A DNA stretch of 64,000 nt from Clostridiales bacterium (GTDB lineage Bacteria > Bacillota > Clostridia > Christensenellales > QALW01). A model generated the notes under the pieces. It was not told the DNA's origin. It made no database searches and was given only the letters and a program-made list of their open reading frames with translations. Below, one piece after another: positions 688 through 60,531 of this stretch. Each line of letters opens with the position of its first letter. Positions within the stretch are counted from its first letter, which is position 1. The stretch is taken from the NCBI GenBank assembly GCA_015069575.1, contig SVIH01000005.1, positions 60,712 to 124,711 of the forward strand, written 5' to 3'. A program made the translations under genes and the position numbers.

Positions 688-3609
688 TTATGTTGGTGCA
701 GTTTGATTACCGCTATGATCAACTTTACAACTGTTCATATTAACAACAGGCGTTCCTGCAACAGATACAAAGTATTGATAATAATTATAGTAAACATAAT
801 TAAACATACCTTTTTCAGGAATAAGAACAACTGTTTGCTTTTTACGTTTTTCCGTTGGGCAATTTTCAGTTGCAAGTGCCCCTGAATCAGAACATATTTC
901 TACTGTTTTATGCATATCACAAGTTTGCATACTTCCAGGTGCGCCATAATCAGAATGAACTTGTGTACAAGCCTCTGAAGCAAGTTTACCTGAAACTGAA
1001 CAATAATTAACCATTTGTACTCCTATACTTTCAGGATCAACATCGCTGAATGCTTTATTTGGCAAACCTTTATGTATTGCATTCATAACTGCAGCAAATA
1101 ACGGGCCTGCAAACTGGCTTCCCTGTGCGCTTGACTGCAAGGGTTTATATGCATCAGAACCTATCCAAGAACAACAAGTATAATATCCTGTAAAGCCCGC
1201 AAAGAACACACCGCGTGATTCAGAGTTTGTACCTGTTTTACCATAAACCGTCTGCCCGGAAACTGCTACCCTGTTGGCAATACCGCTTGTTGCAACATCA
1301 CGCATCATTGAGGCAACCTGCCATGCGGTACTTTCAGAAAATACTTTGCGTTTATCCTGTCCACCAAGCATATCAACAATAGTATTGCCATTTTGGTCAA
1401 CAACTTTGGTAAACGCTATAGGTTCAATATAAGTTCCAAGATTTGCTATGGCAGAAAAAGCGCCTGCCATTTCTAATGGTGTTATACCCGAACTGCCTAA
1501 TGCAAGCCCTGAACCCGTTGCGCTTATATGTTCAGCATCAACGCCAAGATTTTTAAGGGTATTAACTGAATTTTCAATACCAACATCATATAAAAGCGCT
1601 TGTGCTGCCGAAGTATTAAGTGAGTTTACAAACGCCTTGCGCATAGTTACTTTACCTGAAAATGTACGGTTATTATTTAAAGGATAACCGTTAACTGAAT
1701 CCCATCCGTTAATTTTGATTCCCTGATCATAATATACTGTACCTGTGCCTAATCCGTTTTCGATGGCAGGGGCATAAACGGCAATGGGTTTTATAGAAGA
1801 ACCTACAGGCATTGTAGACTGATATGCCCTGTTAAACTGCAATGATCCTGTTGGTGCTTGCCTTCCGCCAACAAGTGCAACGATATATCCGTTATGATAA
1901 TCAACTACCGCCACTGCCGCCTGCGGTTGTGTTAAACGAATAACCGTTCCATCAGGGTTTCTTCCTGCAACTGTATATGAATCTGATTCATATCTCATTT
2001 TAGGATAGTTTTTAAAATCATATACTGCCTTTTCTGCGGCTTTTTGTTTATCGCCATCAATGGTAGTATATATTTTGTAACCTGATGTGCGGATTTCTTT
2101 TCTTATTTCGCTGCGATTTTTTGAATTATCTTCTAAATTTCTGTCTTCCAATATTTCGGAAACAACACTGTCAATAACATAATCAGTAAAATATATCATT
2201 CCCGTTTCTGTAGAATACGGTGAACTCTCTAATACCGTTAATTTGTCATTTCTTGCTGCCTGATATTTTTCTTCATCTATTAAACCGTTATCGCGCATCT
2301 CATAAAGCACAAGATTTGTACGGTTATTTGTTCTTGCAGGATTGTTTCTTGAATAAAAATTAGTGCGTGGATTGTACCTTGACGGATTTTGTATCATACC
2401 GGCCAAACAAGCACATTCCCTTAATGTAAGCTGACTTAAATCTTTACCAAAATAGTCCTTTGCCGCTGTTTTTACGCCATAACAGGATCCGCCCATATAA
2501 ATAGTGTTAAGATAGGCTTCTAAAATATCTTCTTTTGAATACTTGCGCTCAAGTTCAAGTGCCAAAGAAGCCTCCTGAATCTTGCGCTTATATGTTTGTT
2601 CAAACGAAAGAATCGTATTTTTTATAAGTTGCTGTGTTATGGTTGAACCACCTTGCATAGAACCGCTTGTAAGGTTTGATAGCGCAACTGAAAATAATCG
2701 TTTGAAATCAATGCCCATATGGCGTTTAAACCTTACATCTTCAATGGCAATAACAGCGTTTTCAAGTTCATCAGGAATTTCTTCCAATTTTGCCCATTCG
2801 CGATTTTCCATATTGTAGTAGTTTACCAACAAATCGCCGTTAACATCCATTAAAACTGTCGCCTGATCCTGATCTTTAACTACGCCAAAATCAAGTTCAG
2901 GAACTGTTTCAAGATAAGATTTGGACATTCCAAGTAAAAATCCTATACCTGAAATGCATATTATAAGCAAACAAACAAGGAACATTTTAAAAGTAACTAT
3001 AAGCAAATTCACAAAATAATTGCTGTTACCTGTTTTTTCAGTAAAAAATCTTGATGTTTCTTCTATCTGCGCCCGTTTTTCATAGTAAATTCTTTGTTTT
3101 TGTTCATTTGTTTTTTCAACTTGCTGTTTTCTTACAGAAGAAACATTATCAGTTTTCTGTATTCTTTCACGGACTACTTGCTGTTGTGGCCTTTTATTTA
3201 CGCTAACTTGAAGATTACTTTGCCTTTGTTCTCTACGGCGTTTAATTTCTTCAAGTTCTTCTTTTGTCCTTTGTGGTCTTTTTTGTGTTGCGGTATTATT
3301 TTGCCTTTCTTCCCTGTTTGCCTGAGATAAATCGCGTTCTTTTTCCTTTACCTGTCTTAAAGCACGATGGCGTTTTATTAACTCTTTTTCGCTTTCAGTC
3401 AGAGGTCCGCTTAACTGCTCGCCCCTTTGCGCGCGCTTCTTTTTAATTAATGCAATTTCTTCCTGTGTAAGTTGGCTTTTTTTCGTATTTTGCTTTTGTT
3501 CAGACGCGTTTTCAGGGGAACTTCCGCTTTGCGATGACCTTACAGGTGTTACCTGAAAGCCCGAAGCATGTGTCTGTCTTTTATCATCAGTATAATCTAT
3601 GCGCTTCAT
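688..3609 (-). CDS. ponA: Class A penicillin-binding protein (PBP1A type), bifunctional glycosyltransferase/transpeptidase
   Basis: This bifunctional enzyme polymerises lipid II glycan chains and cross-links their peptides outside the membrane. The 973-residue product has a very long basic, Gln-rich cytoplasmic tail (1-195), one membrane segment (about 198-228), a GT51 domain with the EDVRFKRHMGID motif (Glu290) and a transpeptidase domain with SSIK (Ser604), SLN (663-665) and KTGT (791-794). The tail holds three related helical repeats around 47-65, 70-86 and 114-130, of the form T-x-x-E-x-x-x-I-K-x-x-R. The RBS AAAGGGG supports the annotated ATG. It is a single gene convergent with spo0A. 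The enzyme call is secure; the ponA symbol is by analogy. Confidence 0.95.
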   Translation of the reverse strand: MKRIDYTDDKRQTHASGFQVTPVRSSQSGSSPENASEQKQNTKKSQLTQEEIALIKKKRAQRGEQLSGPLTESEKELIKRHRALRQVKEKERDLSQANREERQNNTATQKRPQRTKEELEEIKRRREQRQSNLQVSVNKRPQQQVVRERIQKTDNVSSVRKQQVEKTNEQKQRIYYEKRAQIEETSRFFTEKTGNSNYFVNLLIVTFKMFLVCLLIICISGIGFLLGMSKSYLETVPELDFGVVKDQDQATVLMDVNGDLLVNYYNMENREWAKLEEIPDELENAVIAIEDVRFKRHMGIDFKRLFSVALSNLTSGSMQGGSTITQQLIKNTILSFEQTYKRKIQEASLALELERKYSKEDILEAYLNTIYMGGSCYGVKTAAKDYFGKDLSQLTLRECACLAGMIQNPSRYNPRTNFYSRNNPARTNNRTNLVLYEMRDNGLIDEEKYQAARNDKLTVLESSPYSTETGMIYFTDYVIDSVVSEILEDRNLEDNSKNRSEIRKEIRTSGYKIYTTIDGDKQKAAEKAVYDFKNYPKMRYESDSYTVAGRNPDGTVIRLTQPQAAVAVVDYHNGYIVALVGGRQAPTGSLQFNRAYQSTMPVGSSIKPIAVYAPAIENGLGTGTVYYDQGIKINGWDSVNGYPLNNNRTFSGKVTMRKAFVNSLNTSAAQALLYDVGIENSVNTLKNLGVDAEHISATGSGLALGSSGITPLEMAGAFSAIANLGTYIEPIAFTKVVDQNGNTIVDMLGGQDKRKVFSESTAWQVASMMRDVATSGIANRVAVSGQTVYGKTGTNSESRGVFFAGFTGYYTCCSWIGSDAYKPLQSSAQGSQFAGPLFAAVMNAIHKGLPNKAFSDVDPESIGVQMVNYCSVSGKLASEACTQVHSDYGAPGSMQTCDMHKTVEICSDSGALATENCPTEKRKKQTVVLIPEKGMFNYVYYNYYQYFVSVAGTPVVNMNSCKVDHSGNQTAPT

Positions 3610-3724
3610 AATTTTCCCCTTTCGTATTTTATTTAATCTATTATATCAAATATAAAAAAATTTTTCAACCATTTAATAATATTCAACCAAAAACAGTGCA
3701 AAATATTATAAAAGGAGTGATTTT

Positions 3725-53763: not shown

Positions 53764-54612
53764 TTACTTGCTTATAAATAACACACCTAATGTACCGGCA
53801 CCGCAATGTGATGAAACAACACAACCGGCGCGGGTAATATAGATATTTTTAAATTTATTAAGGCCTGAAACATATGCATAAACATCGTCTATTATTGCTT
53901 GATCTGTACCTGAATGTGTAATAAATACTACTTCTTCATCAGCGTTTAAAATTGCTTCTTCTAAGCCTTGTGCATACTTCATTGTAGCAGAATGAATATC
54001 ACCGCGAACTTTTTTATCAACCTTAATAGAACCATCAACAACCTTAAGTGTTGGGCGGAGTTTTAATGCTGTTGCGCCAAAGGCTGCCATAGCAGAACAT
54101 CTTCCGCCTTTATGTAAGAATAAAACATCTTCAACTACAAAACCTGCGCGAACTTTAGGTATGATTTCGTTTATTTTGTTTACAACATCATCATAGTTTG
54201 CGCCTGCCTTAATCATTTCACCTGCAGTAACAATCTGTAATCCAATGCCTGTTGAAAGGTTACGGCTATCAATAATTGTTATTTTGCTTTCAGGAAATTC
54301 CCCTGCGGCGTTAGCGAAAGTTTGATATGTTGATGACATTTCGCTGCTGATAGTAAATGCAATAATATCGTATTCATCAGCATACTTGCCCATAAGTTCA
54401 ATAACGCTATCGGGACTTGGCGCGCTTGTTGTAGGTGTTTTACCGTTTTTATCTGCCCATGCATAAATTTCGTCGGGCTGAATATCAACACCATCAAAAC
54501 GGCTTTCATCCCCTAAATTTACCTGAAGCGGTAAAATGGCTATATCATATTTTTCAATCAGTTCTTTTGAAAGATCACTGGTTGAATCAGAAATAATTTT
54601 AATTGGTTTCAT
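53764..54612 (-). CDS. DegV-family fatty-acid-binding protein
   Basis: A 282-residue protein with the DegV start KIISDSTSDLSKELIEKYDIAILPLQV, then TSAPSPDSV and FTISSEMSSTYQ (fatty-acid carboxylate contacts), and the C-terminal HSGTDQAIIDDV...GAGTLGVLF. DegV/FakB-type proteins carry fatty acids for phosphorylation by a FakA kinase, which is not in the window. It shares direction with rplI, 23 bases upstream; they may be co-transcribed. Confidence 0.93.
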   Translation of the reverse strand: MKPIKIISDSTSDLSKELIEKYDIAILPLQVNLGDESRFDGVDIQPDEIYAWADKNGKTPTTSAPSPDSVIELMGKYADEYDIIAFTISSEMSSTYQTFANAAGEFPESKITIIDSRNLSTGIGLQIVTAGEMIKAGANYDDVVNKINEIIPKVRAGFVVEDVLFLHKGGRCSAMAAFGATALKLRPTLKVVDGSIKVDKKVRGDIHSATMKYAQGLEEAILNADEEVVFITHSGTDQAIIDDVYAYVSGLNKFKNIYITRAGCVVSSHCGAGTLGVLFISK

Positions 54613-54735
54613 ATTTTTCTCCTTAAAAATAATATATATAAGTTCAACATTATTATATCACAGCACAAAGAAAATTAAAAGAGAAATTTTTTCACATATT
54701 TTTTTACAAAAAATATTGTTATTTTCAACTGTAGA

Positions 54736-54743
54736 CCGACAAA
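54736..54743. promoter_or_regulatory. Possible Spo0A box upstream of spoIIGA
   Basis: CCGACAAA, whose complement TTTGTCGG differs by one base from the 0A-box core TTTGTCGA. It is about 40 bp upstream of spoIIGA, a known Spo0A~P target in other spore formers. Confidence 0.4.
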
Positions 54744-54783
54744 TCAAACAAGCAAAATAGTTTAAAATATCAGTGGTGATGTT

Positions 54784-55542
54784 ATGACGGTTTATATTGA
54801 AATAGTTTTTATTGAAAATTTTATTATAGATTATTATTTATTATTAGGTGCAAGTAAAATCACATATATTCCTTGTAAGCACGCTATCGGAGGCGCAATT
54901 TTTGGTGCATTATATGCTTGTATTATGCCTTTATTTTATTCAGTTGCGCCTGTTGTTCAAAGATTACTTGTTCTGTTATGTATGTGTGTTATAACATTCA
55001 AAACAAAAAATATCAAAACTTTGATTTTTACTTCTGTTGCTGTTTTATGTGCTTCTGCTTGTTTATATGGTATTGTAAATCTTTTATTCGGGCATTTTAT
55101 TGACGGGATTTTTTATACGGACAACGTATTTTTTATTATTGCATTGTGTTCATCATTTGCTTCGGTTTTAATCTACCGTATGCTTATACTTTTAATTAAC
55201 GAGAAAAAACTTAAAAACGCATATTGTCAGTTAAAAATTAACGAAATTTTGTTAAACGCTTTTATTGACAGCGGAAACTCGCTTTATTACAAATCCACCC
55301 CCGTTGTGCTTGTTAATAAAAATGTTTTTAAAGATTGCGAATTACCTATAAAACCTGTTATTATTCCCTATTGCTCCATAGAAAACAGCGGTGCTCTTTT
55401 GGGTTTTACGCCAAAAAGCGTTTCCTTGATATATTCTGATAAAACAGTTGAATTAAACTGTGTTATTGCATTATGCGATCATAAATTCAATAAAAAATAT
55501 GATGCGTTATTGCATCCTGATCTTGTAAGGGAGTGTGTTTAA
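54784..55542 (+). CDS. spoIIGA: Sigma-E processing peptidase SpoIIGA
   Basis: A 252-residue aspartic protease with five N-terminal helices (about 1-130) and a cytoplasmic domain. The active-site Asp is in [20 protein letters not shown]. When triggered by SpoIIR from the forespore it cleaves pro-sigma E. The stop codon overlaps sigE (TAATG), as in other spore-forming Bacillota. Confidence 0.96.
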
Positions 55543-56240
55543 TGAGCTTTGAAAAACTTTTAGATAAAATTCGTCAACTTTTTGAAAAAGAAAGCATATA
55601 TTATGTTGGTGGCGCACAAACACTTCCGCCGCCCTTAGAACAGGAAGAAGAAGATCAGGCTCTTATAGGTTTAAAAAACGGTGACCCCAAAGCAAGAAGT
55701 TTATTGATTGAGCATAATCTTCGTCTTGTTGTTTATATTGCAAAAAAATTTGAAAACACAGGAATTTCTGTTGAAGATTTAACAAGTATCGGTGCAATAG
55801 GCTTAATAAAAGCGGTAAATACATATAACACCGATAAGCAGATTCGCCTTGCAACATATGCTTCCCGTTGCATCGAAAACGAAATTTTAATGTACCTGCG
55901 GCGTACCGCAAAACTTAAAGGTGAAGTTTCTTTTGACGAGCCTTTAAAAGTTGATTGGGACGGTAATGCCCTGTTGCTTTCTGATATCTTGGGCACCGAA
56001 GCAGATATTGTATATAAAGATATGGATGATCGCGATGATATTAAACTGTTAAGGGGCTTAATTAATAAACTTAATGTGCGGGAAAAAGAAATTATTATGC
56101 TTCGGTACGGCATTGACTGTGAACGGGAATTTACTCAAAAAGAAGTGGCGCAAAAGCTTCAAATAAGCCAGTCTTATATTTCCCGCCTTGAGAAAAAAAT
56201 AATTAAAAAATTAAAAAAAGAAATGCAAAAAGTTATTTAA
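55542..56240 (+). CDS. sigE: Sporulation mother-cell sigma factor, pro-sigma E
   Basis: A 232-residue sigma factor with an N-terminal amphipathic pro-region ([32 protein letters not shown]), region 2 ([34 protein letters not shown]) and region 4 ([30 protein letters not shown]). It drives mother-cell gene expression. The ATG at 55542 overlaps the spoIIGA stop by one base. sigG, which follows in B. subtilis, is not present here; a tRNA operon comes next. Confidence 0.97.
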
Positions 56241-56247
56241 AAAACAG

Positions 56248-56276
56248 TTGACAAAAATTTTCTGTTATAATATAAT
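56248..56276 (+). promoter_or_regulatory. Sigma-A promoter of the tRNA operon
   Basis: TTGACA, 17 bases, TATAAT. Full consensus, 22 bases upstream of tRNA-Val. Confidence 0.92.
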
Positions 56277-56298
56277 AACAACGCTTTAAAGAGCACGT

Positions 56299-56374
56299 GG
56301 GAGCATAGCTCAGCTGGGAGAGCATCTGCCTTACAAGCAGAGGGTCACAGGTTCGAGCCCTGTTGTTCCCACCA
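56299..56374 (+). tRNA. tRNA-Val (anticodon TAC)
   Basis: Acceptor GGGAGCA/TGTTCCC (one G-U), loop CTTACAA with anticodon TAC, encoded CCA; 76 nt. Confidence 0.97.
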
Positions 56375-56379
56375 AAAGT

Positions 56380-56456
56380 GGCCCGGTAGCTCAGTTGGTT
56401 AGAGCGCTAGCCTGTCACGCTAGAGGTCGTGGGTTCGAGCCCCATTCGGGTCGCCA
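56380..56456 (+). tRNA. tRNA-Asp (anticodon GTC)
   Basis: Acceptor GGCCCGG/TCGGGTC, anticodon loop CTGTCAC, T-loop GTTCGAG, CCA encoded; 77 nt. Confidence 0.97.
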
Positions 56457-56466
56457 CTTTTTATTT

Positions 56467-56542
56467 GCGGTAGTAACTCAGCTGGTAGAGTGCCACCTTG
56501 CCAAGGTGGATGTCGCGAGTTCGAATCTCGTCTATCGCTCCA
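56467..56542 (+). tRNA. tRNA-Gly (anticodon GCC)
   Basis: Acceptor GCGGTAG/CTATCGC, stem CACCT/GGTGG-type arm around TTGCCAA, CCA encoded; 76 nt. Confidence 0.97.
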
Positions 56543-56545
56543 TAT

Positions 56546-56619
56546 GGCGCTATAGCCAAGCGGTAAGGCATGGGCCTGCAAAGCCTCCATCCCCGGTTCG
56601 ATTCCGGGTGGCGCCTCCA
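56546..56619 (+). tRNA. tRNA-Cys (anticodon GCA)
   Basis: Acceptor GGCGCTA/TGGCGCC, anticodon loop CTGCAAA, CCA encoded; 74 nt. Confidence 0.97.
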
Positions 56620-56620
56620 G

Positions 56621-56658
56621 AAAGAAAGACACGATGAAAATCGTGTCTTTCTTTTTGT
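56621..56658 (+). terminator. Terminator of the tRNA operon
   Basis: Perfect 15-bp stem AAAGAAAGACACGAT/ATCGTGTCTTTCTTT with a GAAA tetraloop and T-rich tail. Confidence 0.95.
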
Positions 56659-56660
56659 GT

Positions 56661-56833
56661 TTGTGTCCATAGGACACAACATCGTTTGCGAGTTTACTCG
56701 CAACATCATTTGACCGATAGGTCAACATCATTGTCCGCTTGGGGACACAAAACGATGTTGCCTTACGGCAAACAGTGTTGTGCTTCGCACAAACGATGTG
56801 GGCTAACGCCCAACGATGTTGCACTTCGTGCAA
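56661..56833. repeat. Hairpin array 1: eight unique hairpins with CATCGT/ACGATG linkers
   Basis: In order: TTGTGTCC-ATA-GGACACAA, TTGCGAG-TTTA-CTCGCAA, TTGACC-GATA-GGTCAA, TGTCC-GCTTGG-GGACA, TTGCC-TTAC-GGCAA, TTGTGC-TTC-GCACAA, TGGGC-TAAC-GCCCA, TTGCAC-TTC-GTGCAA. The linkers read CATCG, CATCAT, CATCAT, then AACGATG, ACAGTG, ACGATG, ACGATG, the reverse complement of the first half. Stems all differ, but most begin TTG and end CAA. Confidence 0.93.
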
Positions 56834-56847
56834 ATATATGGTATAAT
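56819..56847 (+). promoter_or_regulatory. Promoter of the four-helix-bundle gene, with -35 inside the last array hairpin
   Basis: TTGCAC, 17 bases, TATAAT. The TTGCAC is the left arm of the final hairpin TTGCAC-TTC-GTGCAA. Confidence 0.85.
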
Positions 56848-56872
56848 CTGTGTTACATGAGAGGTGTTAGCA

Positions 56873-57229
56873 ATGAAAGAGGATAAACTTTCGGATTTAT
56901 CTATGCAATTATCGGTTGATGTTTTGAAATTAACAAAAGAACTCCGTGCAAAACACGAAACTGTGATTTCAAATCAAATTGGCAGAAGTGCAACAAGCGT
57001 TTGTGCTAATATTGCGGAAAGCAAATACGGTCATAGTCGTGCGGATTTCATTGCTAAACTTGAGATTGCATTAAAAGAAGCAAACGAAACTAGCAAATGG
57101 CTTGAAATGCTTTTTAAATCGGACTATATTGATGAAGCCACCTATAAATCTATTGATAAAACTTGCGCAACAATTCGCATATTATTGATTGCTTCGATTA
57201 AGACAGCTAAAAGCAAATTAAATAAATAA
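56873..57229 (+). CDS. Four-helix-bundle protein (23S IVS/Avd-like family)
   Basis: A 118-residue helical protein starting MKEDKLSDLSMQLSVDVLKLTKEL, with the family's central ISNQIGRSATSVCANIAES turn, followed by two more long helices (DFIAKLEIALKEANETSKWLEML, DKTCATIRILLIASIKTAK). This family includes proteins encoded in 23S rRNA intervening sequences and is related to Avd, the accessory protein of diversity-generating retroelements; it forms basic pentamers that bind nucleic acid. No reverse transcriptase or rRNA gene is nearby. The ATG at 56873 follows GAGAGG, so the track's GTG is rejected. It is flanked by hairpin arrays and followed 17 bases later by a lipoprotein gene. Confidence 0.92.
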   Translation: MKEDKLSDLSMQLSVDVLKLTKELRAKHETVISNQIGRSATSVCANIAESKYGHSRADFIAKLEIALKEANETSKWLEMLFKSDYIDEATYKSIDKTCATIRILLIASIKTAKSKLNK

Positions 57230-57246
57230 CCCAAGGCGGTGATGAT

Positions 57247-57603
57247 ATGAGAAAACTATTAATTTTGTTTTTTGTGCTTCTTTTAGCCCTATCTGTGTGT
57301 GGATGCGGCGCTTCAACAACAGAATCAGATATCGGTTCTACGCCATCGGGCCCTGCTTCATCAACGAATGAAACTTCTAAAATTACTGAAGAAGAGGCTC
57401 TTGAAATTGCGTCACAACATTGGGGCATTAAAAACGGCGATAAAGATGAAGTAACGGGCTTTCCTTTTTTTATTATGCCAGTCGAGAGTTCAAACGATAA
57501 TATTGCAATAGCGCTTAAATGGCTTGTAGACAATCACCATTACTCCACAGTTGATTCAATTGAAATCGACCCTTATACAGGAAATATTGTAAATAGAGAT
57601 TAA
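57247..57603 (+). CDS. Small lipoprotein, PepSY-like
   Basis: A 118-residue protein with signal peptide MRKLLILFFVLLLALSVCGC (lipobox Cys at 18 or 20), a Ser/Thr-rich spacer and a single small domain (ITEEEALEIASQHWGIKNGD...VDSIEIDPYTGNIV), which resembles a PepSY module. It is 17 bases downstream of the four-helix-bundle gene, with RBS GGCGGTG, so co-transcription is likely. Secreted and membrane-anchored, with no recognised function. Confidence 0.8.
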   Translation: MRKLLILFFVLLLALSVCGCGASTTESDIGSTPSGPASSTNETSKITEEEALEIASQHWGIKNGDKDEVTGFPFFIMPVESSNDNIAIALKWLVDNHHYSTVDSIEIDPYTGNIVNRD

Positions 57604-57660
57604 GAAAATCATGTTTTCAGACATATTTCATTTCGTGTCATTAAGTTCAAAACTCCCAAA

Positions 57661-57696
57661 AATAAAGCACTTGTTTCGACAAGTGCTTTATTTTTA
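57661..57696 (+). terminator. Terminator after the lipoprotein gene
   Basis: AATAAAGCACTTGT/ACAAGTGCTTTATT with TTCG loop and T run, a perfect 14-bp stem. Bases 57604-57660 hold no feature. Confidence 0.95.
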
Positions 57697-57697
57697 T

Positions 57698-57855
57698 CCA
57701 ATCCGAAGGATTGGTATGTAATCGCCGTTAGGCGTATGTTATCACGCGAAGCGTGTATGTCATCACCGCAGGTGTATTTTCTTTGGATTGATTACATACC
57801 ACCTGCGGTGGATTGCATTCCGACTTCGTCGGATTACATACAATGCGACCCATTG
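57698..57855. repeat. Hairpin array 2: seven unique hairpins with TATGTAAT/ATTACATA linkers
   Basis: CCAATCC-GAA-GGATTGG, CGCC-GTTA-GGCG, CACGC-GAA-GCGTG, CACC-GCA-GGTG, then a 24-base centre without a hairpin, then CCACC-TGC-GGTGG, CCGAC-TTC-GTCGG and CAATG-CGACC-CATTG. Linkers are TATGTAAT, TATGTTAT, TATGTCAT on the left and ATTGCATT, ATTACATA on the right; the left and right sets are reverse complements. Confidence 0.92.
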
Positions 57856-57902
57856 ATTTATCACCGCTTTTTTGCTATAAAAGCTAAAAGATAGGTGGTT
57901 TT

Positions 57903-58364
57903 ATGAAATCTTTATTAAAATATATAAATATAAAAACAACCCTTTATTCACTTGGATTTTCCTGTGCAAGTGCCTTAACCCTTTGCTCACTTTATAATCT
58001 TTTTGTGATTGTTATTGCAGATTTGTCAAGCGCTTATCCTGAATTTGCTTCTTTAATATATATTTACCGCGCACTTTTTATTGCAAGCATAATCGGTGCA
58101 GTTATCGGCTTAATTTTTGGCAACTATTTTCGCTGTTATTTACATGCGTTTAAAGAAGAAATCTTTTACAAAAAAAGGTTTGATTATAGACATTGGTTTC
58201 AGCCTTATTTGTTTTCCGTTTTTCCTTTTAGTATTATCGTTTCTTTCAGGGTTACTAACGTTATAAGTAAAAAGGCTCCTTTATGGGAGCTCTTTTTCAA
58301 TTTAACATTGCACAATCTTTCAGAATATGTTAGAATATTAATACTGCTTAAATACAAAATTTGA
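57903..58364 (+). CDS. Membrane protein of unknown function, 153 aa
   Basis: The protein has about four hydrophobic helices (TLYSLGFSCASALTLCSLYNLFVIVIADL, YIYRALFIASIIGAVIGLIFGNYF, and two later ones) with a basic cytoplasmic loop and no signal cleavage site. The RBS is ATAGGTGG with a TATAAA-like box upstream. It is not recognised. It lies between array 2 and the ATP-grasp gene. Confidence 0.75.
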   Translation: MKSLLKYINIKTTLYSLGFSCASALTLCSLYNLFVIVIADLSSAYPEFASLIYIYRALFIASIIGAVIGLIFGNYFRCYLHAFKEEIFYKKRFDYRHWFQPYLFSVFPFSIIVSFRVTNVISKKAPLWELFFNLTLHNLSEYVRILILLKYKI

Positions 58365-58403
58365 ATATGCGTTATAATCGTTTTTTATTTTAGGAGGTAG
58401 AAA

Positions 58404-59396
58404 ATGCACTCTATTTTATATCAGCTTAAAAGTTTTGATAAATTCTACAAAATTCTAGCAAAAAAAGAGAAGCATAATCGCTTTTTAATATTTTGCGATT
58501 ATGTGTTTTCAATGTTTCTTTATGGTGCATCTGCTTCGGATTATTTTGACTTTGAGTTCTATAAAAAGAAACATTCTGTTCGCAACAAATATGTTTGTTG
58601 GAAACTTAAAAAACAGTTTATGCACACAGTAAATGATTATTCTCCTGAAAAAAATAAAATCTTTAACAAAAAAACTGAGTTTTTAAAGTGCTTTGACAAA
58701 TTTATCGGTCGCGACTGGTTAGATACTTCTGTTTGCAGTTTTGAAGAATTTTGCGTTTTTATAAAAAAGCACCCTTCGTTTATTATTAAACCTTCAAATA
58801 TGTCGCAAGGTAAAGGCATAAAAAAAGAAACCGTAGATGATTCACAGGATCTTCAACTTATTTTTGAAAATTATAAAAATGAAAAAATGTTGTTGGAAGA
58901 ACTTATAATCCAGCATCCCAGACTTAATGATTTATATCCCGGCAGCGTTAACACAGCGCGTATTGCAGCAGTAAACTGCAAAGGTGAACTTGTTATTTTA
59001 GGTACTTGTTTGCGTTTGGGCAGTGGTGGATCAGTAACGGATAACTTCAGTGCCGGCGGGCTTTCTGCTACTATTGATAAAGAAACCGGTATTATTACTT
59101 CTGATGGATATAATCACCTTCACGATACCATTGAAAAGCATCCTGATACAAACGAGACATTCCGCGGTTTTGAGATTCCATTCTGGCAAGAAGCAATCGC
59201 GATGATAAAGGAAGCTTCCACTATAGTTGAAGGCGTTAATTATATTGGTTGGGATGTTGCCTTTACTGAAAAAGGTCCTGTTTTAGTTGAAGGCAATTTT
59301 GAAGGTATGTTCCATGCAATTCAATCTAACAACAACTATTTAAAGAAAGACGTGCTTAAAATATTAAATATTTTCCGTAACGAAAAAGGCGCTTAA
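58404..59396 (+). CDS. ATP-grasp protein (sugar-transfer-associated type, PF14397-like)
   Basis: The 330-residue protein has IIKPSNMSQGKGIKKE (ATP lid) about 131-146, EELIIQHP, the metal-binding NTARIAAVNCKGELVILGTCLRLG, and the acidic GWDVAFTEKGPVLVEGNFE near the end, the pattern of ATP-grasp ligases linked to polysaccharide or cell-wall modification. The N-terminal 100 residues are helical. It has a good RBS (GGAGGT) and lies 40 bases after the membrane-protein gene; its terminator overlaps the stop. Confidence 0.88.
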   Translation: MHSILYQLKSFDKFYKILAKKEKHNRFLIFCDYVFSMFLYGASASDYFDFEFYKKKHSVRNKYVCWKLKKQFMHTVNDYSPEKNKIFNKKTEFLKCFDKFIGRDWLDTSVCSFEEFCVFIKKHPSFIIKPSNMSQGKGIKKETVDDSQDLQLIFENYKNEKMLLEELIIQHPRLNDLYPGSVNTARIAAVNCKGELVILGTCLRLGSGGSVTDNFSAGGLSATIDKETGIITSDGYNHLHDTIEKHPDTNETFRGFEIPFWQEAIAMIKEASTIVEGVNYIGWDVAFTEKGPVLVEGNFEGMFHAIQSNNNYLKKDVLKILNIFRNEKGA

Positions 59397-59412
59397 AAAG
59401 TGCCTTTTTTAT
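59384..59412 (+). terminator. Terminator at the ATP-grasp stop
   Basis: AAAGGCGC/GTGCCTTT stem plus T run, with the TAA stop inside the loop. Confidence 0.8.
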
Positions 59413-59505
59413 TGCAATCTTATTTGTTTTTCTTGCAAAATTGCTTGAAATTAACTGTTTAATCTTTTATAATATATTCACTAACATATAAGGCGGTTTT
59501 AAAAA

Positions 59506-60531
59506 GTGAAAAAAGTTCTTTTAACAAACGAAAAACCATATTTTAAGGCAAATTTGCATTGTCATACAACCATTTCTGACGGCAGGGTTTCAAAGGAAAC
59601 AATAAAAGAGCATTACAAGAAAAACGGATATTCTGTAGTTGCATTTACTGACCACGATGTTCTTGTGCCCCACCCTGAGTTAAATGACGAAAACTTTTTA
59701 GCGTTAAACGGCTATGAAATTCAATTAGACAAATGGGAAAGTGATGATTATGCTGACACAAAAACCTGCCATATCTGTTTTATCGCATTAGAAGAAGACA
59801 ACCGCTACCCCGCGTGTTTAAGGCGCACAGGCTATAAAGTTGGCGATGCAGACAAATACACCCATTTGTTAGAGTTTGAAGAGGGTCAAGAAGATTTTGA
59901 TGTTTCTTACGGGTTAAAGCAAGCAAATCTTGCTTTTAAATTAGGTAGAGAGCACGGCTATTTTGTAACCTACAACCACCCCACCTGGAGCCAGGAAAAC
60001 TATCCTATATATTCAAAATACGAAGGTATGTGCGCTATGGAAGTGTTTAACACTATGGAGTACCGTGATTACCTTACCTATAACCGCCATATTTATGACG
60101 ATTTTTTAAGACAAGGCAAGCGCATTTACTGTATTTATGCTGACGACACTCATTGCCATTACCCATTAGGTCATCCCATGAACGATGCCTGTGGCGGTTG
60201 GGTAAACATAAATGCGAACGAATTAAAATACCGCACAATAACCAAGGCGCTGGAAAACGGTGAGTTTTATTCTTCAAACGGACCTGAAATTTATAATCTT
60301 TATGTTGAAGACGGTAAAATACATATTGAATGTTCGCCTGTTAAGAGAATTATTTTTTCTGTTGGCAGGCGCAACAATAGTTCGCGTATTGAAACCGATA
60401 TGTGTTTAACAAGCGCTGAACATCCGTTAAACGCAGATGACGAATATATCCGCATTACATTAGTTGATGAAGAAGGCAAGTGTGCCGATACCAACGCATA
60501 TTTTATAGATGATCTTTTAGGAGAAGAATAA
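59506..60531 (+). CDS. PHP-domain metallohydrolase (second paralogue)
   Basis: A 341-residue protein starting with GTG after AAGGCGG. Motifs: ANLHCHTTISDGR, VVAFTDHDVL, YNHPTWSQEN, YADDTHCH, matching the PHP tri-metal site. A paralogue of the PHP protein at 36663 (shared start, fold and motifs, roughly 40-50% by eye in the first 80 residues). It overlaps the following large hydrolase gene by one base (TAATG), so the two are translationally coupled and probably work on the same saccharide-linked substrate. Confidence 0.88.
   Translation: MKKVLLTNEKPYFKANLHCHTTISDGRVSKETIKEHYKKNGYSVVAFTDHDVLVPHPELNDENFLALNGYEIQLDKWESDDYADTKTCHICFIALEEDNRYPACLRRTGYKVGDADKYTHLLEFEEGQEDFDVSYGLKQANLAFKLGREHGYFVTYNHPTWSQENYPIYSKYEGMCAMEVFNTMEYRDYLTYNRHIYDDFLRQGKRIYCIYADDTHCHYPLGHPMNDACGGWVNINANELKYRTITKALENGEFYSSNGPEIYNLYVEDGKIHIECSPVKRIIFSVGRRNNSSRIETDMCLTSAEHPLNADDEYIRITLVDEEGKCADTNAYFIDDLLGEE

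Follow-up and report, generated by a model that had tools for sequence, protein, structure and literature searches.

A run of short hairpins joined by a near-constant linker stands directly upstream of an S23/IVP family gene in a Clostridiales genome, and near-identical copies of this combination of array and gene occur in differing contexts in related genomes. We put at about even the chances that the combination is a mobile module, in which the array acts as single-stranded DNA (ssDNA) bound by its cognate S23/IVP four-helix-bundle protein, and which carries passenger genes. Somewhat more tentatively, such modules may constitute a new class of mobile elements with linker-specific recognition by S23/IVP proteins, which reside behind the terminators of stable RNAs and acquire accessory genes, and of which the Gut-1 RNA would be a half-array. 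The array connects two long-unexplained things, the S23/IVP family and Gut-1 (since about 2010). Should these proposals prove true, they would also give a function to one clade of the S23 proteins, which are widespread. Provided that ssDNA is indeed their working form, the hairpins would define a mobile system that carries genes, is recognized by shape and belongs to neither the integron nor the REP/RAYT family. It would be common in uncultured gut Clostridia, since 37 of 151 genomes have Gut-1-type arrays.

Organization of the array locus

The array and its gene lie at positions 56661-57229 of the 64,000-nucleotide stretch of DNA that was analysed (hereafter the window; Table 1). An earlier note, made from the sequence alone, had described eight hairpins with eight different stems 5' of the gene, and these are found at 56661-56833. 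It had also correctly read the linkers as CATCGT or CATCAT followed by the reverse complement ACGATG; in order they are CATCGT, CATCAT, CATCAT, the centre CAAAACGATG, ACAGTG, ACGATG and ACGATG. The stems opening with TTG and closing with CAA to which it drew attention are frequent. Seven of the eight units are clean, perfect hairpins, and the fourth, at the centre, has a 6-nt loop. The loops of units 5-8 (TTAC, TTC, TAAC and TTC) read GTAA, GAA, GTTA and GAA on the - strand, and the centre contains a sequence, GGACACAAA (56743-56751), that is complementary to the 5' arm of hairpin P1. The 186-nt strand of this array, called array A, folds as DNA with a z score of -6.9, with none of 200 shuffles equally good, and as RNA with a z score of -6.1.

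The note was thus right about the array and the gene, and it overlooked a second array, the terminators 5' of both arrays, the strand polarity of the loops and the promoter that the last hairpin contains. The second array (DNA fold, z -6.96) has no adjoining S23 gene; in other genomes, arrays of its class sit upstream of a divergent IVP clade. A TTGATT-17-TATAAA arrangement (57853-57881) runs out of its last hairpin into passenger gene 2.

Table 1. Features of the array locus, in positions of the window
Feature	Position	Strand	Details
tRNA-Val, -Asp, -Gly, -Cys operon	56299-56619	+	Upstream of the module; Rfam tRNA, ARAGORN
Bidirectional intrinsic terminator	56621-56654	+	AAAGAAAGACACGAT-GAAA-ATCGTGTCTTTCTTT; immediately 5' of array A
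Hairpin P1	56660-56679	+	5' arm TTTGTGTCC (56660-56668)
Hairpins 2 and 3 (first half)	56686-56703, 56710-56725	+	Linker CATCRT; G..A-type loop in unit 3
Array centre	56732-56757		Linker orientation switches; fourth hairpin at 56732-56747
Units 5-8 (second half, inverted)	56758-56771, 56778-56792, 56799-56812, 56819-56833	-	Linker ACGATG
Gene promoter	56819-56847	+	-35 TTGCAC (5' arm of the last hairpin), 17 bp, -10 TATAAT
S23/IVP four-helix-bundle gene	56873-57229	+	118 aa; PF05635, TIGR02436
Passenger gene 1	57247-57603	+	Small lipoprotein; orphan in 60 relatives
Second bidirectional terminator	57658-57695	+	
Second hairpin array (class B)	57698-57855		Linker TATGTNATC/GATTACATA; two inverted halves
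Passenger gene 2	57903-58364	+	Membrane-like, 153 aa, no assigned family; 3' of the second array

The S23/IVP protein and the occurrence of arrays

S23/IVP proteins are found across bacteria, and structures have been solved since 2006-2007, but we know of no agreed function for them. The product of the window gene matches PF05635 (E 5e-27, 94.6 bits, cut-off 33.8) and TIGR02436 (E 1e-28, 99.6 bits, cut-off 24). Its predicted structure (pLDDT 94) aligns in Foldseek with 2rld (TM 0.9), 2gsc (TM 0.8) and Avd (4dwl/8ub7, TM 0.75), which bears out the earlier assignment to the Avd/S23-like four-helix bundles, and with a pI of 9.06 the protein is basic, as had been expected. The 2rld and 2gsc entries each contain chains A-E. 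No catalytic site is known in the S23/IVP protein.

In a tree of 68 proteins, the array-bearing ones are part of one clade, and the array-less ones are mostly outside it. Proteins with CATC-type (class A) linkers form one clade (99/98), and so do those with class B linkers (100/100). The linker class tracks the protein clade, although one genome (G013) carries several array classes; this congruence could result from physical linkage alone. At some loci (L031:2311-2646, L248 and L255) the S23 gene is frameshifted or truncated behind an intact array, the gene decaying while the array remains folded.

The earlier note had asked whether arrays are enriched next to the family and held that a lack of enrichment would speak against a connection. 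Each of the three PF05635 genes in this genome (G000) lies immediately downstream of an array that itself follows a tRNA operon, and the share of the 300 bp upstream that is taken up by hairpins is 41% in 80 related loci vs 5% in a downstream control. The enrichment holds for the one clade that bears the arrays and is missing for distant S23 proteins: all 29 that were sampled across the phylum lack arrays. When 520 kb of related loci were dinucleotide-shuffled, no run of at least four hairpins resulted. No repeated-linker array was found in 20 stretches (400 kb) from genomes without the IVP family, nor, besides those in the window, in 20 stretches (382 kb) of this genome. Solo arrays occur elsewhere in this genome, namely two of class C (C21:77367 and C1:41440). 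Like the second array of the window, those at L287 and L289 have no S23 gene beside them, which counts against the module that we favour.

The protein family is carried by 60 of the 248 genomes of the order. We found no relatives in the viral contigs searched, and in plasmids just distant S23 proteins (<60% identity). A literature search that reached few subscription journals and preprints returned no paper on such arrays beside the S23 family. At one contig end (L085:3920-4071), the unit TTGCGCTACGCGCAAATGATG recurs in several identical copies, which represents a recent amplification or an assembly artefact.

Gut-1 RNA corresponds to half an array

In the accessible text of its description, Gut-1 (Rfam RF01706) is an sRNA/non-coding RNA candidate without an assigned function, graded a certain RNA by its authors (Weinberg et al. 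2010, PMC2864571). It comprises three hairpins with the linker GUGAAAU and corresponds to a half-array of class C/D, sharing with these arrays both its anatomy and its group of gut bacteria. The RF01706 covariance model matches class C/D arrays in L245, L226, L098, L066, L250 and other loci, and gives no match in the window at E<=1. The model misses the inverted second half, and the portion of the source text that we could consult makes no link to a protein, a terminator or a mobile module.

We scored Gut-1 and S23 genes in 151 genomes, taken to be G000-G150, with which the listing is consistent. Both were present in 30 genomes, Gut-1 only in 7, S23 only in 8 and neither in 106 (odds ratio 57, p = 8e-18). 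An S23 gene is thus found in 30 of the 37 genomes with Gut-1-type arrays vs 8 of the 114 without. Five of the eight S23-only genomes are represented in the tree (G010, G033, G069, G076 and G087), all on array-less branches. The seven Gut-1-positive genomes without an S23 match are evidence against the module that we favour. Outside the order, among 250 genomes, Gut-1 was detected in one genome besides G000, and S23 in 44 others. Gut-1 copies number 20-30 in some genomes, which is a minimum, as only a few candidates were scored.

Single-orientation Gut-1-type arrays are also located directly behind the stop codons of protein genes (L275, L278 and L282), where they could serve as terminators or mRNA stabilizers.

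The hairpins as DNA, RNA or operators

On the CATC strand, the array loops are of the GNA (156) or GNNA (77) types, i.e. 233 in total, with no TNC or TNNC loop, and non-array hairpins in the same loci have no loop bias. We adopted this simpler count because a stricter one, based on splitting at the linkers, lost 39 of 169 units to mis-splitting; it also yielded zero TNC/TNNC. GNA and GNNA loops closed by G-C pairs form extraordinarily stable DNA mini-hairpins (PMC4686876), and the 233:0 loop polarity is the signature of such ultra-stable ssDNA mini-hairpins. Polarity switches at most once in 43 of 45 arrays, across all classes. Simple search handles are offered by the linker code and by the restriction of GNA/GNNA loops to one strand.

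Long-range pairing is also conserved. In 53 of 60 arrays (88%), but in 0.3% of shuffles, the 5' arm of P1 can form 9 or more base pairs with the centre, and compensating variants occur in these pairs (TTTGTGTCCGC/GCGGACACAAA, CATTTGTGCCGC/GCGGCACAAATG and CAATCCGAA/TTCGGATTG). Folding predicts a fishbone-like, long-range arrangement of the linkers, both halves carrying one motif.

The base pairs of the stems bear on the nature of the folded molecule. In array stems, 1.1% of the pairs are G-T, whereas the figure for tRNA stems from these loci is 5.7% (p = 1e-10), even though evolution is faster in the array stems. There are 12 G-T and 3 A-C pairs on the CATC strand, a weak difference (p = 0.035). 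With G-U pairs nearly absent, we regard it as rather unlikely that the array is transcribed as a structured non-coding RNA bound by the S23 protein, be it for autoregulation, for a type III toxin-antitoxin-like cassette addiction or as an RNA intermediate of movement. Such an RNA would be in keeping with the RNA fold score of array A, with the entry of Gut-1 in Rfam as an sRNA (a certain RNA, in the text available to us) and with the closest functional relative, Avd, which acts in a ribonucleoprotein with its RNA (8ub7). However, the array has a terminator on one side and, on the other, a promoter that points away from it, which argues against its transcription. The GNNA loops are frequently not of the GNRA type (GTCA, GTTA and GATA), and the inverted halves leave no one transcript with a uniform loop type. 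Because of the stable-DNA-loop type, the scarcity of G-T pairs and the location of the array outside predicted transcripts, we infer that a role at the DNA level, on the CATC strand, is to be favoured.

The order of the halves varies between classes (FR or RF), and single-orientation arrays also exist, so that no single model of a DNA end fits all. A central double-strand break, with the GNA strands as the two 3' tails, suits class A; we did not adopt this model because the order is reversed in class A' arrays.

An intrinsic terminator 5' of the array is a general pattern (63 after tRNA genes, 39 elsewhere). A -35/-10 arrangement is present in 68 of 79 loci (9.9 in shuffled sequences), with the -35 box within a hairpin arm in 39. 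It is usually the last hairpin that includes this box, at a distance of 17 bp from the -10. The -35 box in the last hairpin, the linker-to-linker spacing of mostly 19-25 bp and the different downstream genes driven by arrays would all suit a double-stranded regulatory region, with linkers about two helical turns apart serving as iteron-like operators for S23 or a host regulator and palindromes as cruciforms or insulators. We nevertheless hold this to be improbable, since it accounts neither for the strand-polarized loops, the variable, perfectly paired stems and the inverted halves, nor for the solo arrays that are found behind coding genes and in genomes with 20-30 copies.

Mobility, insertion sites and passenger genes

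Pairs of related loci show that array and gene have moved between related genomes, and that neither the terminator to their left nor the passenger to their right is tied to this movement. In the L050/L051 pair, the flank is 85.9% and the terminator 62% identical, vs 99.1% for the array and 99.4% for the gene, and the next gene is unrelated. Similarly, the L062 and L068 loci have 83% identity in the flank, 99.1% in the array and 98.3% in the gene. The proposal of the earlier note that array and gene form one mobile system is thus well supported for one S23 clade. At the tRNA-Thr/Tyr site, 22 congeneric genomes contain arrays of class A, A', B, C or D, or none, and some S23 genes at this shared site are broken. 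Congeners of the window's own genus, at 39% protein identity, are too diverged for synteny at the same site.

The L062 and L068 arrays are distinguished by a clean indel of 39 nt, which corresponds to two units gained or lost. The earlier note had proposed a comparison of strains for such changes; ordinary recombination at the linkers explains this one equally well. The difference downstream of the same two loci was suspected to be a cassette insertion, but the segment concerned has no array.

This two-unit change between 99%-identical arrays, the identical tandem units in L085 and the almost exclusively Watson-Crick stems are what one would expect of selfish or neutral palindromes, whose units would be duplicated by linker slippage and whose stems would be kept perfect by template switching, the gene being a mere frequent neighbour. 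That explanation seems very unlikely to us given the tight tie of the arrays to one protein clade and to the genomes that carry it, the fixed loop polarity and the conserved pairing of the first arm with the centre.

Most arrays are located 3' of the terminators of tRNA operons. Others follow 5S rRNA (L041), tmRNA (L211 and L227) or coding genes, and because 5S rRNA and tmRNA are among them, the target appears to be the terminators of stable RNAs and not tRNA genes specifically. Recombinases and transposases are not regular neighbours of the modules, with three motif matches in 80 loci, and this speaks against the favoured module, as does the lack of a known catalytic site in its protein; the tyrosine-recombinase motif was detected in one of the 80. 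A tail test identified copies of the tRNA tail, of the kind expected from an integrase, at three loci (L245, L257 and L096), the others being at control level, and a fourth copy was seen by eye (L242). There is, in our estimation, only a slim chance that the modules depend as satellites on tRNA-targeting tyrosine-recombinase islands, whose integrases alone would move them. The location 3' of tRNA genes, the four exact tail copies 5' of arrays and an ORF with an integrase motif near the L030 array would agree with it, but tail copies are at control level in most loci, and the arrays behind 5S rRNA, tmRNA and coding genes do not fit.

In L242, L245 and L096, a sequence of ~90 nt (GGTTCGCCTTGGCGGAGAYGCGAGGGACATAAAATGCGACGG...) precedes the array terminator and ends in an exact copy of the tRNA 3' tail. 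It is found at tRNA-Tyr and tRNA-Arg genes and resembles a separate, tiny element that duplicates tRNA tails. In L030, a tRNA Val-Asp-Phe-Gly cluster is duplicated around two small genes (1513-1934 and 3241-3723), next to the hairpin array and the integrase-motif ORF, in what looks like a hotspot of tRNA-array expansion.

The gene 3' of S23 varies by locus and often overlaps the S23 stop codon (ATGA). GNAT acetyltransferases are the commonest passengers (8 of 34), and NUDIX, methyltransferase, AAA, DUF4357 and DMP19 proteins also occur. Some units are arranged in tandem, certain of them without S23 (L031 and L078).

Proposed mechanism

In the mobile module that we favour, the hairpins would act as folded ssDNA on the CATC strand (C-GNA-G or C-GNNA-G), and the linker would confer class specificity. 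The basic four-helix bundle, as an oligomer, would bind the folded array in the manner of Avd on its RNA, and the bound protein may mark, protect or synapse the DNA during its transfer by an enzyme of the host or of a third party. Because recognition would be by shape and linker, the stems would be free to drift or be exchanged, hence eight hairpins that all differ in their stems. From its promoter, which lies in the last hairpin, the module would express the S23 protein and any gene behind it, and so provide accessory genes with a transportable means of expression. Arrays that lack a gene in cis would represent non-autonomous copies.

Comparison with known systems

REP elements are matched to a cognate RAYT protein gene. 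REPs and REPINs are short hairpins with a conserved tag, found as inverted pairs or clusters, and act as ssDNA (PMC3733652, PMC3116915). The arrays resemble them in their tagged hairpins, inverted pairs and cognate protein gene. However, their stems are not conserved and nearly all differ, with the linker as the constant part; they lie behind terminators and head passenger genes; and their protein is a four-helix bundle (PF05635) without an HUH/Y1 nuclease.

The attC sites of integrons are hairpins of variable sequence recognized by structure. Integron cassettes are similar to the arrays in these variable structured hairpins, in passengers such as GNATs and in their tandem arrangement; unlike them, each array unit has its own promoter. 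We found no attC-type boxes (RYYYAAC/GTTRRRY) on either strand of positions 56500-58000, and no adjoining integron integrase. As the earlier note had maintained, the array is not a CRISPR, the constant part being a linker of 6-7 nt and the variable parts self-complementary. Group II introns are often located behind terminators, but the window gave no Rfam match at E<=1 other than tRNA.

Avd and S23 have the same fold and belong to the same family as the window protein (PMC10053308), but hairpin arrays are not described for either. The array is not part of a 23S rRNA intervening sequence: positions 54000-60000 contain no rRNA, and the window gene is behind tRNA-Cys. The earlier note had suggested a mobile or diversifying system; there is no RT of the diversity-generating type, TR or VR beside the array. 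The sole RT match of the genome, on another contig (C5:15472), adjoins none of its three array loci. That RT (RVT_1; C5:15472-16062, locus L117) is preceded on its 5' side by a possible Avd-like protein of 137 aa, and together they probably represent a diversity-generating retroelement located by phage-like genes.
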